Positions 10,139-15,557 of a DNA stretch of 64,000 nt are shown here, in pieces. The position numbers were made by a program, and so were the translations under genes. How positions within the stretch are numbered: position 1 is the stretch's first letter; every line of letters begins with the position of its first letter. The notes below the pieces were generated by a model, which did no database searches, was not told the origin of the DNA, and was given only the letters and a program-made list of their open reading frames with translations. This stretch comes from Verrucomicrobiia bacterium DG1235 (GTDB lineage: Bacteria; Verrucomicrobiota; Verrucomicrobiia; Opitutales; Opitutaceae). The stretch covers positions 3,658,335 to 3,722,334 of the forward strand of contig DS990592.1 of NCBI GenBank assembly GCA_000155695.1, given 5' to 3'.

Positions 10139-10867
10139 ATGAAAAGCGTCCTAAACAGTCTATTGCTCGCAGCCTCATTGCTAATGTGCGGATCTCATGC
10201 GGCTGCCGATTTGACGGAGACCCTCGAAATCCAGGAGATCCAGATCGTAAAACAGACCGATGTCCGCTTTCCAGCCACTATGCGGTCCATCGGAGTTAAA
10301 GAAGGAAACGTCTCCCTCGTCATTGCAGTCGACCAAAACGGCGCCTTGCAGGATACCTTCATACTCAAGAGCTCCCGAAACGCCTTCACAAAATCCGCCC
10401 TCAAATCGATCGGCGAGTGGGAATTCTCTCCCGCTTCCTGCAACGGAACGCCGATCAACTCCGCCCTACGCATCGACTTGAGCTTCCGGGTAGACCGCAA
10501 GCTCACCTGGCAAACCTTTCAGGCCCCCATGGAGACCAACGTCACCCGCTCCTCGCTCGAAGAAAAACCCATCACCGCATCCCTCTTCGGAGAACTGGAC
10601 GAAATCCCGCTCCCCATCGAAATCATCGAGCCGGAAGAAGTCGTAGAAGGAAACGCGACCATCGAGTTCTACATCGACGAAATGGGAAGCGTCCGCTGCC
10701 CGCGACTCACCAACGGCTCCAGCCTCGAGTTTGGCCAAACCATGCTCGATACCGTCGCCCTCTGGCGCTTCGAGCCTCCCGTAGCGGAAGGCGCCCGCAC
10801 CAATACCATGGTCCGCCAGACCTTCACCTTCGCCAACGGACGCCTCACCGCAGCCAAAGCCGAGTAG
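10139..10867 (+). CDS. Secreted protein with two TonB C-terminal-like domains
   Basis: A 242-residue protein with a cleavable signal peptide (about 1-23) and no proline-rich spacer or N-terminal anchor like true TonB. Two copies of the TonB C-terminal fold pattern are visible: 'EGNVSLVIAVDQNGALQ...WEFSPA' at about 55-105, and 'EGNATIEFYIDEMGSVRCP...WRFEPP' at about 165-215. It is probably a periplasmic or outer-membrane-associated beta protein. Role unknown. It runs convergently into the ECF sigma gene and the two stop codons are 12 bases apart. Confidence 0.7.
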   Translation: MKSVLNSLLLAASLLMCGSHAAADLTETLEIQEIQIVKQTDVRFPATMRSIGVKEGNVSLVIAVDQNGALQDTFILKSSRNAFTKSALKSIGEWEFSPASCNGTPINSALRIDLSFRVDRKLTWQTFQAPMETNVTRSSLEEKPITASLFGELDEIPLPIEIIEPEEVVEGNATIEFYIDEMGSVRCPRLTNGSSLEFGQTMLDTVALWRFEPPVAEGARTNTMVRQTFTFANGRLTAAKAE

Positions 10868-10885
10868 CGCCCCAAGCGGCTACTC
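10862..10885. terminator. Hairpin spanning two convergent stop codons
   Basis: GAGTAGC (10862-10868) and GCTACTC (10879-10885) form a 7-bp inverted repeat with a 10-base loop. The stem contains both stop codons of the convergent TonB-domain and sigma factor genes. There is no strong U-tract on either side, though a pyrimidine-rich TCTTCCTCC follows on the + strand. A two-way terminator is the simplest reading. Confidence 0.4.
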
Positions 10886-11506
10886 TTCCTCCTTGCCCCA
10901 AATGTCCCCGGACGGGCCAATCTTGCTGCTAAGTATCGTCTTCAGGGCCTTGCGCGCCCGATAGAGACGCGTCTCCACGCCCTTGATCGTACATCCCACG
11001 ATCTCGCCTATCTCCTTGTAACTCAGGGCCTCGTATTGATAAAGGATCAGCGTTACCCGCAAATCGTGCGGCAACTTGTTGATCGCGTCTTTCACGATTT
11101 CGATACGCTCCTGGTTCAGGGCCTCCTGATCGGGAGCGATACTAGCGCCCGTCTCAGCAAGTGGGTGGACCTCCCCATCCGCTCTCGACCAGTCATCCGT
11201 CAGACTATCTTTCCCGAACGCAGGATGCCTGCGCTTCCAACGCTCGAAATTCTTGCAAAGATTCGAAAGCGAAGTGAACGCCCAAGCCGAAAACTTCGTG
11301 CTCTCCTTGAACCGGTCCCGATTCTTGTACACACGCACAAACAACTCCTCCACCAAGTCCCGCGCGTCCTCCTCACTCTGCACATAGCGATAGGCAAAAC
11401 TCATAAACGGACGCTGCCACCTCTCCATCAGCTCGTTCATCGCTGTGTCACGACCCTTGCGAAGCTGCGCAAGCAACGCTAGGTCAGTCTCATTGTCGGA
11501 GGGCAT
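10880..11506 (-). CDS. ECF-type RNA polymerase sigma factor
   Basis: A 208-residue sigma-70 family factor. Region 2 is seen in FAYRYVQSEEDARDLVEELFVRVYKN and 'FSAWAFTSLSNLCKNFERWKRR' (about 36-95), and region 4 in 'LPHDLRVTLILYQYEALSYKEIGEIVGCTIKGVETRLYRARKALK' (about 145-190), each broken here for length. The linker is acidic. It is the last of a leftward group after a CnrX-like periplasmic protein and a small membrane protein, the kind of partners that hold an ECF factor at the membrane until a signal arrives. A 101-base leader separates it from the previous gene, so it may have its own promoter. Confidence 0.88.
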   Translation of the reverse strand: MPSDNETDLALLAQLRKGRDTAMNELMERWQRPFMSFAYRYVQSEEDARDLVEELFVRVYKNRDRFKESTKFSAWAFTSLSNLCKNFERWKRRHPAFGKDSLTDDWSRADGEVHPLAETGASIAPDQEALNQERIEIVKDAINKLPHDLRVTLILYQYEALSYKEIGEIVGCTIKGVETRLYRARKALKTILSSKIGPSGDIWGKEEE

Positions 11507-11607
11507 TTAAAGGGGTATAGAGAAGAGTCGCGCATAGTACGACCCCAGCGAGTTTCGGAAAGAAAGAGAATTACCTAGGTTTGCTATCCCTTAAGCTTGG
11601 GGATCGT

Positions 11608-12045
11608 CTAGTTAATTCGGCTTTGAACGATGGAAAAATAGCGCTTGCGCTGATCCATGTTCATTACATCGCCAACCGAAGCAATCAAGTCGCTAGTCGA
11701 CTTCATGCAGGCCTCGTCGAGCTTGCGCTTCACTTCCATATAATTGCGGATCTCCAAATAATCCACATAGCCCTCAGTCACCCGCTCTGCCTCGAGCTCC
11801 GCAAGCAACAACTCCAAGTCCCGCACCTTGCGCGACAAACTGCGAATCTGCGCCGCGCTGTTCCCATGCAGACGGGTAATGCTCACGTACTGCTCTTCCG
11901 ACAAATCAAGTTCCGCACGGAGCCACTCCATCTCGCACTCAGCGTCCGCCGAGAAACAAGCAGGAGCATAGGCATTAAAATATCCCAAATGAGCCGCAGC
12001 ACCCGACACAAGGCCAATAGACAAAACTACAATCGATTTCCACAT
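11608..12045 (-). CDS. CnrX/Metal_resist-like periplasmic sensor protein
   Basis: A 145-residue protein with an N-terminal signal anchor (SIVVLSIGLVSGAAAHLGYF) followed by an all-helical region. The stretch AECEMEWLRAELDLSEEQYVSI and a later heptad-rich segment (LSRKVRDLELLLAELEAE) match the metal_resist/CnrX group of periplasmic helical-hairpin proteins that bind metal ions and control ECF sigma factors. Two Cys, in PACFSADAEC, near the start of the helical part could be ligands. The membrane-protein gene ends only 6 bases upstream and the sigma gene follows, supporting a signalling role. Metal specificity cannot be read. Confidence 0.65.
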   Translation of the reverse strand: MWKSIVVLSIGLVSGAAAHLGYFNAYAPACFSADAECEMEWLRAELDLSEEQYVSITRLHGNSAAQIRSLSRKVRDLELLLAELEAERVTEGYVDYLEIRNYMEVKRKLDEACMKSTSDLIASVGDVMNMDQRKRYFSIVQSRIN

Positions 12046-12051
12046 AGCAGA

Positions 12052-12381
12052 CTAATCGTATAAATAGGTGTCTTTGATAAGCGGGTCGATTACCTGCTTG
12101 TAGCTTTCCGCCAGCTGATTTCCGCGTTCCACCTGCTGCTGAGCGACCCTTAGCTCCGCCAACAACAAGCCACCAAGAATACACGCCACCACAAAAGCAG
12201 ACGCGTACATCGGTCGACTCAGAATGGACTGCACCAAATTGAGGAAGTTGGGCAAAGCAGCCGGCTCCTTGTCCTCGTTCGCCACACGCGCCCAAACGCG
12301 AGAGTTCAAGCGAGGATGGTCAACTTTGACATCCTTCCAGAGCTCGAGAGCCTCGTCTAACTGCTTACAATTATCGTCCAT
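12052..12381 (-). CDS. Small single-pass membrane protein, anti-sigma-like
   Basis: A 109-residue protein: a soluble acidic N-terminal part (MDDNCKQLDEALELWKDVKVDHPRLNSRVWARV, here about 1-45, broken as LDEALELWKDV and SRVWARVAN), one membrane helix at about 61-80 (ASAFVVACILGGLLLAEL), then a coiled tail. The layout (cytoplasmic helix, one TM, short outer part) is that of small anti-sigma proteins paired with ECF factors, but no zinc motif (HxxxCxxC) is present. The ATG at 12381 is chosen; the frame upstream to 12480 has no support. Function is inferred from its neighbours only. Confidence 0.55.
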   Translation of the reverse strand: MDDNCKQLDEALELWKDVKVDHPRLNSRVWARVANEDKEPAALPNFLNLVQSILSRPMYASAFVVACILGGLLLAELRVAQQQVERGNQLAESYKQVIDPLIKDTYLYD

Positions 12382-12630: not shown

Positions 12631-12861
12631 CTAATTGCAGCCACAGCCACCGCCGCCAACACCTTCTCCTCCAGTGCTCGCTTCGCGCGAAAAGTAGACG
12701 TGCGCCGTCATGACTCCTTCAAGTGAATCTCGGTCGGCCTTCATCGTGTAGTCAGCGAGATTTCCCTTCTCCCAAGGCTGCACTGTCTCGCAGCCACTGA
12801 GTAATAAGCCAAGACCCGCCACTACGCATACAAACAATCGCTTCGCTTTCACCCTTCTCAT
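12631..12861 (-). CDS. DUF4266-type mini-lipoprotein ending in GGGGCGCN
   Basis: A 76-residue lipoprotein: signal peptide with lipobox LLSGC (Cys about 24), then VQPWEKGNLADYTM, a short middle, and a glycine-rich tail GGEGVGGGGCGCN with two Cys near the end. As I recall, DUF4266 proteins share both the 'V-x-P-W-E-R/K-G-x-L-A' opening and the GGCGCN ending, so the tail is probably functional: a metal site, a disulfide or a modified peptide are all possible. Its ATG overlaps the TlpA stop by one base (TAATG). It is the last gene of a four-gene chain with the DUF3570 barrel and ApbE. No activity is known to me. Confidence 0.8.
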   Translation of the reverse strand: MRRVKAKRLFVCVVAGLGLLLSGCETVQPWEKGNLADYTMKADRDSLEGVMTAHVYFSREASTGGEGVGGGGCGCN

Positions 12862-13370
12862 TACTCTTTCTCCTCCAAAAGTTTCGCGATCTCTCGCTCT
12901 AGCTCAGCAGCCGTTTCCCCGCCTCGCCAACCATAGTGCACCTTGCGAATAATCCCCTTCGCATCCACCAAAAAGGACGTCGGCATCACTTCGATTCCCG
13001 CGTCCGCCACCAGCTTCTGCTCGCGGTCCCACACGATCGCGAAACTAGGCTTAGCGCGATCGAGAAACCTCTGCATCGCCTTCTGGGTCGAATCCACGCT
13101 CACCGCCAGCACCTGGAAACCTGCATCCTCGTTCTCTAAATAGATTCGCTCCATCTCGGGGAACGACGCCTTGCACGGTGCGCACCACGACGCCCAAAAG
13201 TCGACATATGTCACCTTCCCTTCGATGCCGGGCAAACTGCCTTCGAGCCCGTAAGCCGACAGATCCGGCAGCTCGCCGCCTTCCTCCCATTCGGCGAGCG
13301 CGGATACTGTTGTGAAAATGCCAAACAAGATCGGCAAAAAGAGCTTCCTAGTTTTGTACAACGTATTCAT
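12861..13370 (-). CDS. TlpA-like periplasmic thioredoxin
   Basis: A 169-residue thioredoxin-fold protein with a signal peptide (about 1-28, KLFLPILFGIFTTVSALA). The active site is WASWCAPCKASFPEM, a CxxC of the TlpA/ResA type used as a reductant or disulfide catalyst for periplasmic partners. The cis-Pro loop is VMPTSFLVD. The start ATG at 13370 lies inside the 3' end of the ApbE gene (23-base overlap) and the stop overlaps the next ATG, so translation is coupled. A plausible client is the Cys tail of the downstream mini-lipoprotein, which is inference. Confidence 0.85.
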   Translation of the reverse strand: MNTLYKTRKLFLPILFGIFTTVSALAEWEEGGELPDLSAYGLEGSLPGIEGKVTYVDFWASWCAPCKASFPEMERIYLENEDAGFQVLAVSVDSTQKAMQRFLDRAKPSFAIVWDREQKLVADAGIEVMPTSFLVDAKGIIRKVHYGWRGGETAAELEREIAKLLEEKE

Positions 13371-14343
13371 AAAATTGTGACGATTGATAAATTGAGTTCT
13401 CAGTGATGAAGCAGCCTTCCGCTCCATAGTTCCCTTCCACGAGTTCTATCCCCTTGTCGGGTCCCGCCACAAACGCCGCAGTCGACAAAACGCCAGCCTC
13501 CAAGCATGAGGGCGCGATTATGGAAATCGCTTCCAACCCGTTCGAAACCGGATAGCCTGTATCCAAATCTATGATATGTCCGTAGCGACGTCCCTCGAAA
13601 ACGAAGTTTCGATGATAGTCGCCCGAAGTTGCGACACCACCACCGCGCAACATAGCAATCCCCGTCCAAGTCGCTCCAGGACGCTGCGGATCTTCCAAGC
13701 CGATATGCCAAGCTGGAGCGTCCAAAGGAGCCCCTAAAGCATGGATGTCTTGGCCAAAATCAACCAGGCAGTTAACGATTCCATGCGACACCGCCAAGCC
13801 GGCAACCTTATCCACCGCGTACTCCTTGCCAAATCCGCCAAAGTCCAGACTCATCCCCTCGCTAGGCAAAAAAACTTCACCTGGGCGACGCTCCACCCGC
13901 TTCCAATTCACCAACTCCCGAGCCGCCTTCACCTCCCCCTCGGACGGTAGCTCCAATCGCTTTCGCCGATAGTCCCAAAGCTCAATCAACGGCAATGCCG
14001 TCGGATCCAGCTGCCCATGCGTCATGAAATTCAAATCGTCGCACAAAGCGAAAATATGCTCCACTTCCTCGTCGATCGCCACCCAGCGCTTACCGGCCTC
14101 ACGATTGATCTCGGAAAGCAGACTCGTATCCAAATACCGCGAGTACTTTCCCTCAAAACAAGCCACCCACGCCACCGCCTCTTCAGCGAACTTTACCGCA
14201 TTCCGACGATCCTCAATCGCAAAAAGAACGCTACAGTCCGTCCCCATCGCCTTAAATGACAAACGGTAGAGCTGCCGCACCTCGTCAAAGGACAAACGAC
14301 TCGCGATATCCTTCCGATACTTCAGGTCACGGGCTAAAACCAC
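13348..14343 (-). CDS. ApbE-type FAD:protein FMN transferase
   Basis: A 331-residue ApbE-family enzyme, which attaches FMN from FAD to a Thr or Ser in a Dxx[S/T]GAT motif of a target protein. Family motifs: FKAMGTDCSV near the N-terminus, QLDPTALPLIELW, 'MSLDFGGFGKEYAVD' and 'GRRYGHIIDLDTGYPV', then CLEAGVLSTAAF. The GTG at 14343 is chosen because GGAGG lies 6 bases upstream; a GTG at 14346 is only 3 bases from it. The gene overlaps the end of the barrel gene, which carries that exact motif. Unusually, no signal peptide or lipobox is visible (the N-terminus is charged), so flavin attachment may happen in the cytoplasm before export. Confidence 0.87.
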   Translation of the reverse strand: MVLARDLKYRKDIASRLSFDEVRQLYRLSFKAMGTDCSVLFAIEDRRNAVKFAEEAVAWVACFEGKYSRYLDTSLLSEINREAGKRWVAIDEEVEHIFALCDDLNFMTHGQLDPTALPLIELWDYRRKRLELPSEGEVKAARELVNWKRVERRPGEVFLPSEGMSLDFGGFGKEYAVDKVAGLAVSHGIVNCLVDFGQDIHALGAPLDAPAWHIGLEDPQRPGATWTGIAMLRGGGVATSGDYHRNFVFEGRRYGHIIDLDTGYPVSNGLEAISIIAPSCLEAGVLSTAAFVAGPDKGIELVEGNYGAEGCFITENSIYQSSQFYEYVVQN

Positions 14344-15524
14344 CACACCCCTCCAATCGTCAAAATGTCCGCCTTCGGAAAAGCTCCCTCGTGCGTCACG
14401 CCGTCCTTCCCCTTCATTTTGTAACGCTCCCAGCTCACGTCCACCGACACCTGCTCCGCGATCTTGTAGATCGCCTTCAAGCCATAGGTCTCCGTCTCCA
14501 TCTTCGCGAGACGATAGTCCGCCGAATAGAAGGGAGCTACCCCCACGACCGGCTCCAAAGGATCAATATCCGTTCCATTCAAATCGGCAAAGTAGAAACT
14601 GGCCGCATTCTGATTATAGTAACGGTAGCTAGGACGAAGCGTAAGCTTGTCACCAACTTTTTGATACCACTCCAAATCGAAAGTATGGCTCTCCACGCCC
14701 CACGTATCGTTAAAGTAGCGATAGTCGAAATCGATACTTCCCCGCAACTCCGGAAAAAACCGCTTCACGTTCGCAAACCATATCCTGCGCAAACGCTCGT
14801 CGGGGCGATGCTCCGGAGCCTCCTGAAAGAGAAAGAAGCCAGGAATCACCTCCACATCCTTGGCGATTAACTTGTAGGGGTCGTTCAAGTACCCCTCGAA
14901 TTTTCCATAAGTGAAGTTCAAACTCGCCACCGTATTCGCGTCTATCACCTGACTCAGCCCGACATAGGCATCCAGGCTCTCCTTAGTCTCCGCCTCATCA
15001 AAAAAGCTCGGCTTAATCTCGTCATCTACAAATGAGAGACCGTAGCTCACTCCCGTATTCCGCTTATTATACTCGGAAGTGTTGTAGATCGCGTATCCCT
15101 TCGAAAGGAAATCGCTCTCCTTGCTGTGCGCGAACTGAAACGAAGTCTTGTGAATCCCACGCGTCCAATCCAAGTCCACCACGCCGGCCTCGCGGACATC
15201 CGTAACTTCCGTAATCACCAACTCGTCTCCACTCGCGCCCGTTGACCCCGTCGGCGTCGCTCCCGATATCGAATCATGCACCCCATGCAAGCGCAGCGCG
15301 AAACTCTCGTTTATCTTCTTCTCCACACCCAAATACTTGGATAAGACCCGCACCCGCCCATCGTCCTCCTGATAGTCCTGCCACTTCACCGACACATGGT
15401 CTTCCGCCCGGGCCGACTTCACCCACGCAAGCTGCAGATACGCACAGAAAACGAGCAACTGAAGCGTACTTCTCACGCCAAGACCAGCGGGTCCACTAGC
15501 AATTCTAGACTTGGGATCTGTCAT
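14334..15524 (-). CDS. DUF3570-type outer-membrane barrel with flavinylation motif
   Basis: A 396-residue secreted beta protein: signal peptide at about 1-40 (LQLLVFCAYLQLAWVKSARA), alternating hydrophobic strands throughout and a terminal Trp-Trp-Phe, the C-terminal signature of outer-membrane barrels. Near the start of the mature chain is D84-SISGAT-90 followed by PT, an exact match to the ApbE target motif Dxx[S/T]GAT seen in NqrC and RnfG; Thr90 would carry FMN. The family assignment (DUF3570) rests on this region and the overall layout. It heads the chain barrel-ApbE-TlpA-DUF4266 with overlapping ends. Covalent flavin on a barrel is an inference from motif plus neighbour. Confidence 0.78.
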   Translation of the reverse strand: MTDPKSRIASGPAGLGVRSTLQLLVFCAYLQLAWVKSARAEDHVSVKWQDYQEDDGRVRVLSKYLGVEKKINESFALRLHGVHDSISGATPTGSTGASGDELVITEVTDVREAGVVDLDWTRGIHKTSFQFAHSKESDFLSKGYAIYNTSEYNKRNTGVSYGLSFVDDEIKPSFFDEAETKESLDAYVGLSQVIDANTVASLNFTYGKFEGYLNDPYKLIAKDVEVIPGFFLFQEAPEHRPDERLRRIWFANVKRFFPELRGSIDFDYRYFNDTWGVESHTFDLEWYQKVGDKLTLRPSYRYYNQNAASFYFADLNGTDIDPLEPVVGVAPFYSADYRLAKMETETYGLKAIYKIAEQVSVDVSWERYKMKGKDGVTHEGAFPKADILTIGGVWWF

Positions 15525-15557
15525 AGGAAATAGGGGTGTTCGTCCAAACATTAGCTC

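Follow-up and report, generated by a model that had tools for sequence, protein, structure and literature searches.

Does a barrel in a bacterial outer membrane carry a covalently bound flavin, and if so, between which partners would it pass electrons? This question is raised by a stretch of 64,000 nucleotides from Verrucomicrobiia bacterium DG1235 (contig DS990592.1; the whole stretch is called the window, and its own numbering is used below), in which four minus-strand genes that overlap in turn encode a DUF3570 protein, the flavin adenine dinucleotide (FAD):protein flavin mononucleotide (FMN) transferase ApbE, a thioredoxin-like protein and a DUF4266 protein. The answer proposed here, to which we give an even chance of being right, is an outer-membrane flavin relay of a split type that runs from thiol to flavin and ends outside the cell, with the FMN added in the cytosol. 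It builds on a conserved motif in a predicted porin-like barrel, on an ApbE type that lacks a signal peptide and has an altered metal site, and on a co-occurring family of secreted proteins, termed LLQRTP proteins after a shared signature.

The gene set, its strand and its successive overlaps are those described in an earlier sequence-only reading of the window, and the Pfam matches agree with it. The DUF3570 gene (14334..15524; PF12094, 219.7 bits), whose frame is also open from an upstream ATG at 15551, encodes a signal peptide reaching to about residue 40, counted from the start at 15524. It is followed by the gene for ApbE (13348..14346; GTG start), a member of PF02424 with 229.6 bits against a cut-off of 25.6, by that for a TlpA/ResA-like thioredoxin with a WCAPC motif (12861..13427; Redoxin, 70.3 bits), for which the signal-peptide core in relatives points to the ATG at 13370 as the likely start, and by that for the small DUF4266 protein (12631..12861; PF14086, 79 bits), which has a lipobox-like LLSGC, recognised by eye, and a C-terminal CGCN at 12645-12634. 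The same genome holds one DUF3570, one DUF4266 and five ApbE matches.

This four-gene cluster, which defines DUF3570-type flavinylation, is of an already known kind. Clusters of the same four families, with and without DsbD, have been described (Meheust et al., 2021, PMC8238504), and the DUF3570 protein of C. luteolum was found by in-gel fluorescence to be flavinylated by its ApbE, using signal-peptide-truncated constructs in E. coli; two sites had to be removed before the signal was lost, and the function of the systems was called uncertain (PMC8238504). The statement in the sequence-only reading that known ApbE targets do not include such proteins is not supported, the same gene set having been described in 2021. 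The window cluster differs from those of 2021 in that its barrel has one conserved site, that DsbD is absent from it, so that it is not of the DsbD subtype, that its ApbE has no signal peptide and an altered metal site, and that the LLQRTP family co-occurs with it. The ApbE type, the LLQRTP family and a second site in a barrel loop go beyond the papers seen: the words 'barrel', 'Ig-like' and 'immunoglobulin' are absent from the main text of PMC8238504, as is 'DUF3570' from a 2024 paper in the same field (PMC11334425), and the open-licence literature, as far as searched, yielded no description of the LLQRTP family or of a flavinylated outer-membrane barrel, no report of a signal-less ApbE acting on exported targets, among the papers listed none on flavinylation in Verrucomicrobia or of surface proteins, and since 2021 none on covalently bound FMN in extracellular electron transfer at the outer membrane.

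The putative flavinylation motif, D84-SISGAT-90 followed by PT, lies at 15249..15275 on the minus strand, exactly as the sequence-only reading had written it: counting residues from the Met at 15524, DSISGAT is encoded by 15275-15255, with the D84 codon at 15275-15273, that of the acceptor Thr90 at 15257-15255, and T92 ending at 15249. The ApbE motif is given as D-x-x-[S/T]-G-A-[S/T], with minor effects when the Asp is replaced (review, PMC12052999). Relatives came from a named-genome set, the best 80 of 557 DUF3570 loci, in which the closest protein is that of Pelagicoccus mobilis with 79% identity, marking the genome as Pelagicoccus-like. In an alignment of 73 sequences (the window's own and those of 72 named loci), D, I, G, P and the final G of the motif occur in all 73 and the acceptor is T in 72 and S in one, and the relaxed pattern [DNE]x[IVWLMF]xGx[ST]PxG is present in 80/80 named loci. 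On these alignments the motif in DUF3570 is more than chance. The strict form Dxx[S/T]GAT fails as an invariant rule, since A (27) and V (4) stand beside T (24) and S (18) at position -3. [S/T]GA[S/T], the motif of DUF3570 clusters, is matched by DSISGAT and relaxed at -3 among relatives. A second motif of this type in the window protein, T95-G-A-S98 (15231..15242), was missed by the earlier reading; it has no counterpart in the closest relatives (L079 and L107), so its candidacy as a conserved second site was dropped, and it may be incidental.

An AlphaFold model made on 73 sequences from the same loci (mean predicted local distance difference test score, pLDDT, 91.8; predicted template modelling score 0.86) shows 16 barrel strands and a hairpin, and porins and other barrels can be superposed on it from end to end (Z 17.7-20.9 among the 50 matches listed). 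Together with the signal peptide, the even strand number, the closure of the predicted barrel and the C-terminal aromatic residue (GVWWF), this supports the outer-membrane barrel suggested by the sequence-only reading; fold likeness to porins shows no function. The acceptor, T50 in the numbering of the model and T90 in that of the protein starting at 15524, lies inside strand 35-55 according to DSSP. In this strand residues 36, 38 and 40 are mostly polar and 37 and 39 hydrophobic, and therefore D44, I46, G48 and T50 would face the lumen by strand alternation, an assignment weakened by residues 42 and 43, which are both hydrophobic and make a bulge possible. Strand parity, counted back starting with the C-terminal strand, predicts that the loop following strand 35-55 is extracellular; the acceptor would then sit at the outer end of strand 3 and face the lumen. 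Burial of Thr90 in a strand had been named beforehand as grounds for abandoning the flavinylated barrel; Thr90 does lie inside a strand, but its predicted position is lumen-facing and towards the extracellular end, and since a signal-less ApbE would modify the unfolded chain, the site may not have to be accessible once the barrel has folded.

Two known systems come close to such an arrangement. MtrCAB conduits likewise tie a barrel to redox carriers, and MtrB appears in the Foldseek list at rank 44, a match that reflects the shared barrel fold only; whereas MtrCAB relies on multihaem cytochromes, the window system would use flavin and thiols. NqrB and RnfD have an SGAT-type site within a membrane protein, there among inner-membrane helices, here in an outer-membrane barrel, and presumably a Pro follows their flavinylation site. 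If true, a flavin sitting at the outer mouth of a porin-fold protein would provide a haem-free electron route at the outer membrane.

The second line of evidence concerns ApbE. Among the 80 named loci, a hydrophobic core (mean Kyte-Doolittle value of at least 1.8 in a 12-residue span ahead of the first conserved block) was found in 0/76 ApbEs as against 61/65 DUF3570, 70/72 TlpA and 51/51 DUF4266 proteins, counts that omit rows without an anchor (15/80 DUF3570, 2/74 Tlp, 21/72 DUF4266 and 1/77 ApbE). A further set consists of 46 loci, the window and 45 regions from genome draws (16 from an order draw, 29 from a phylum draw); in this first set a clear core is seen in the ApbEs of loci L074-L076. 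Of the plasmid ApbEs, the two from Hymenobacter have such a core and the one from Vibrio has none; one ApbE of the signal-less type just reaches the threshold (L064, 1.80). The lack of a signal peptide is accompanied by a change at the metal site. In the window protein Gly285 (13492..13494) replaces the ligand Asp and Thr289 retains the ligand Thr, the E. coli ligands being D280 and T284 (PMC4767422), and G173-K174-E175 (13822..13830) replaces the usual A-K-G. When 125 ApbEs were aligned, 122 covered both metal-site segments, and here the two changes covary perfectly: 115 have Gly at the position of the ligand Asp together with a Glu within the AKG-type segment; the other seven (L074-L076, one Hymenobacter and three paralogues from the window's genome) keep the Asp and lack the Glu.

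The best PDB sequence matches of the window ApbE are solved ApbEs, and it shares the Pfam domain with the canonical periplasmic enzymes of Salmonella, E. coli and Vibrio cholerae, but it departs from these in having neither an N-terminal signal peptide or lipobox nor the Asp and Thr ligand pair. From the alignments we infer a distinct clade that acts in the cytosol, and because this ApbE lacks a signal peptide, FMN is probably attached before export. Signal-less ApbEs serving cytosolic fumarate reductases are known (PMC12052999). That of Klebsiella pneumoniae also lacks a signal peptide, but its target is a cytosolic fumarate reductase instead of an exported barrel (PMC12052999). If a signal-less ApbE does act on proteins bound for export, the Sec channel would have to let FMN-bearing chains through.

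The genes of the cluster travel together. DUF3570 exceeds the cut-off in 17/132 genomes of the order draw and 30/288 of the phylum draw, and DUF4266 is present in 29/288 phylum-draw genomes, every one among the 30 with DUF3570. The first-set loci yielded DUF3570 in 45, ApbE in 43, DUF4266 in 43 and a thioredoxin in 36 of 46, and the named loci ApbE in 76, a thioredoxin in 73 and DUF4266 in 71 of 80, some contigs stopping there. The DUF4266 relatives examined end in CGC and one residue. Thiol maintenance, which the sequence-only reading had suspected, is supported to the extent that this thiol partner co-occurs almost one to one with DUF3570. One further region, G084/L049, was discarded as a DUF3570 cluster, its DUF3570 match being under the cut-off and no cluster being seen there.

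Gene content varies in some lineages. No thioredoxin gene lies beside the cluster in L036, L037 and L045-L048, where a downstream secreted protein has W/Y-rich ends (that of L036 without a Pfam match). On a plasmid of Vibrio sp. THAF191d (L165) the unannotated order is Tlp, DUF4266 (154 aa), DUF3570, signal-less ApbE and DsbD, and this ApbE carries the same altered metal site. Two Hymenobacter plasmids (L166 and L164) combine a thioredoxin, an ApbE with a signal peptide, DUF4266 and DUF3570; DUF3570 is split into two open reading frames (ORFs) in L166, and ApbE in L164.

The third line of evidence is the LLQRTP family. Downstream of DUF4266 there is often an ORF that opens with a hydrophobic stretch and LLQRTP; some 35 residues further on come another hydrophobic segment, the motif [HDNQ]-x-x-[AST]-G-A-[TS] and an immunoglobulin (Ig)-like part. 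A search with a QRxP-type signature found such an ORF after 61/115 DUF4266 genes, with GA[ST] at the expected place in 58; two of the others were wrong-frame and one was a different protein (L110). The N-terminal region had no Pfam or NCBIfam match in seven full-length examples, one of which is the haem variant of L053 described below. A profile (A4) was run on whole genomes; since each of its 50 source sequences had been picked for having GA[ST], that motif is partly selected. The profile matches 17/132 order-draw genomes, exactly the 17 with DUF3570, whether or not the two genes are linked (Fisher 9e-22, not corrected for relatedness); six of these had fed regions to the profile, and the remaining 11, none knowingly used for it, give 11/11 versus 0/115. 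In the phylum draw 17/288 genomes match, of which 16 have DUF3570, and the match in the one without it (G313; E 1.7e-4, a stop inside and no GA[ST] in the first 160 residues) was treated as false. In the family to which the window's genome belongs, 12 genomes have both DUF3570 and LLQRTP and 14 have neither. The genome itself has two LLQRTP genes, C6:1764554-1765711 (HALSGAT) and C6:3503218-3503985 (RAISGAS), with no ApbE within the 13 kb read around each, and one query for the family on plasmids gave no match.

In 66 motif rows, one of which (L112) was mis-set by the pattern, H stands at -6 in 44 and D in 11, and A at -3 in 47. The -3 residue tracks that of DUF3570 only loosely and was not used as evidence, and a clustering of neighbours, which joined unrelated Ig-like proteins by single linkage, was used only as a lead. 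We predict that LLQRTP proteins are a second ApbE substrate, which would make the family a candidate outside partner of the barrel and possibly an unread class of covalent flavoproteins.

Where the LLQRTP family is missing, most DUF3570 lineages have another GA[ST]-type site within a loop of the barrel itself. When the loop that leads from the motif to the SxExDYxS block was scanned in the 123/127 DUF3570 ORFs that could be parsed, a second GA[ST] was found in 11/123: in the window, in L074-L076 (as SGASGDYY) and in seven loci with long loops of 140-158 residues (L050, L051, L052, L062, L068, L069 and L073), six of which share [KR]AGAT. The GAS of L069 lies within a low-complexity stretch, and VTAATP occurs in L069 and L066. 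Apart from the window's, the genomes with second sites are negative for the A4 profile. In L053 a large Ig/cadherin-like protein (L053:8364-13001) overlaps DUF4266 and has one CxxCH haem motif (C45) and, close to the N-terminus, at the place of LLQRTP...GAT in other loci, no GA[ST]. The sequences suggest that two redox sites per system are a tendency within the phylum, not a law.

Combining these lines, a cytosolic ApbE with an altered metal site would place FMN on Thr90 of the unfolded DUF3570 precursor and on the Thr or Ser of GA[TS] at the signal/Ig junction of LLQRTP-type proteins, and Sec would then export both FMN-bearing proteins. DUF3570 would fold into the 16-strand barrel, its FMN lying inside the lumen close to the extracellular opening, the LLQRTP protein would hold a second flavin outside the cytoplasm, and TlpA and DUF4266, whose CGC tail is a possible swinging dithiol, would pass electrons from a thiol source, candidates for which are DsbD-like proteins encoded elsewhere in the genome, to the barrel flavin and then to an outside acceptor. 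FMN on Thr90 and on the LLQRTP proteins, the cytosolic timing, the extracellular side, the direction of the electrons and the acceptor are all deduced, and the weakest steps are the flavin on LLQRTP proteins, the electron direction and the acceptor. The fuller version is more tentative and falls somewhat short of an even prospect: a two-flavin relay split over two exported proteins and loaded in the cytosol by an ApbE clade with a rewired metal site, with the second site of other lineages in an extended barrel loop and a c-type haem motif in its stead in L053.

Several points weigh against the relay. The covalent FMN electron-transfer barrel foreseen by the sequence-only reading is partly supported, by a flavinylated relative and a predicted barrel; the flavin on the window protein, its outer-membrane place and electron transfer through it are predictions, and the topology comes from strand parity, not from coordinates. 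Loss of the ligand Asp could mean altered or lost ApbE activity, and a canonical ApbE reportedly failed to function in place of its periplasmic form when made in the cytosol (PMC12052999). The motif does not always stand alongside ApbE, since four named DUF3570 loci (L101, L105, L116 and L142) and also L060 keep it with no adjoining ApbE; seven window-type loci have no TlpA beside the cluster, and the three DsbD_TM matches in the genome are all unlinked to it. The LLQRTP family is missing from 14 of the 30 phylum-draw genomes with DUF3570, the Vibrio DUF3570 has a single site, and L053 has neither a second GA[ST] in its DUF3570 nor a match to the A4 profile. Finally, GA|T fits a signal-peptidase I site, so the motif of the LLQRTP proteins may be one of cleavage.

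This last point underlies the main rival, which we consider rather unlikely: LLQRTP...GAT would be an extended signal peptide with GA|T as the signal-peptidase site, and the barrel, with DUF4266 and TlpA, would export or anchor the LLQRTP proteins and alone have FMN. The small residue at -3 and the Ala at -1 suit cleavage. In a model of the L128 N-terminus (pLDDT 77.8), low-confidence helices extend over residues 1-67 and a confident Ig-like fold begins at residue 71, with G68-A69-T70 between, which suits either a cleavage or a flavin site; in a fold search this model had a single match at E<0.001, to an S-layer protein (7.9e-4), besides many weak ones to Ig-like proteins. The C-terminal parts differ (Ig, NHL or none known), leaving the N-terminus alone as the shared part, and there is a precedent in the PEP-CTERM sorting signal, which was found via a shared phylogenetic profile (PMC1569441). 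Cleavage, however, needs neither Gly at -2 nor Thr/Ser at +1, yet the 24 LLQRTP ORFs found in 20 regions away from the clusters (besides the false one of G313) keep Gly before the Ala in 22, Ala before the acceptor in 24 and Thr/Ser at the acceptor in 24, and in most lineages without the family the GA[ST]-type site sits in a barrel loop, where cleavage is not expected. The strict Gly and Thr/Ser argue for a flavin site over cleavage in these sequences and are no proof.

Less probable still, to the point that we would be surprised by it, is an ordinary DUF3570 cluster of the 2021 type, whose flavin faces the periplasm and acts on envelope thiols or metals, the signal-less ApbE start being a peculiarity of annotation or export. 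In its favour, the genes are those already published, the signal peptide of TlpA makes this protein periplasmic, and the topology is predicted, with pLDDT dropping to 63 in residues 51-60; yet strand parity counted from the C-terminal strand and the long loops place the motif loop outside, and an ApbE signal peptide is seen in 0/76 while the neighbours have one. Very improbable is an envelope metal or redox sensor that in Pelagicoccus feeds the adjoining anti-sigma, sensor and extracytoplasmic function (ECF) sigma set, with electron transfer only part of sensing, for which speak the ECF sigma set that immediately follows the cluster in the window and in L079, an ECF sigma gene adjoining DUF4266 in L040 and L051, and response regulators and kinases near the cluster in other loci, while the anti-sigma and sensor-like genes occur in just 2/126 loci (the window, L034-L078 and L079-L158) and a scan of the regions preceding the operon, the sigma set and the genome's two LLQRTP genes found no shared ECF-like promoter, its single match lying in L079.

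The downstream set itself, also on the minus strand, comprises a small protein with one hydrophobic stretch that is anti-sigma-like by position (12052..12381), a small secreted protein that is CnrX-like by position and helical look only (11608..12045), and an ECF sigma factor with Sigma70_r2 and r4_2 domains (10880..11506; TIGR02937, 105 bits). Neither small protein has a Pfam or NCBIfam match, and both have a homologue in L079. The gene order at 10880-12381 resembles that of cnrYXH, and the ECF sigma factor fits such a set; a CnrYXH-like set was rejected as a general part of the system, as among the 126 loci the two small genes occur only in the window and P. mobilis (L079). On the opposite strand, a protein with two TonB C-terminal-like stretches (10139-10867) ends just beside the sigma gene. 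In other Opitutaceae loci (L054, L095, L103, L125, L129 and L142) a response regulator gene is next downstream of DUF4266, followed in several of them by kinase and CarboxypepD_reg genes.

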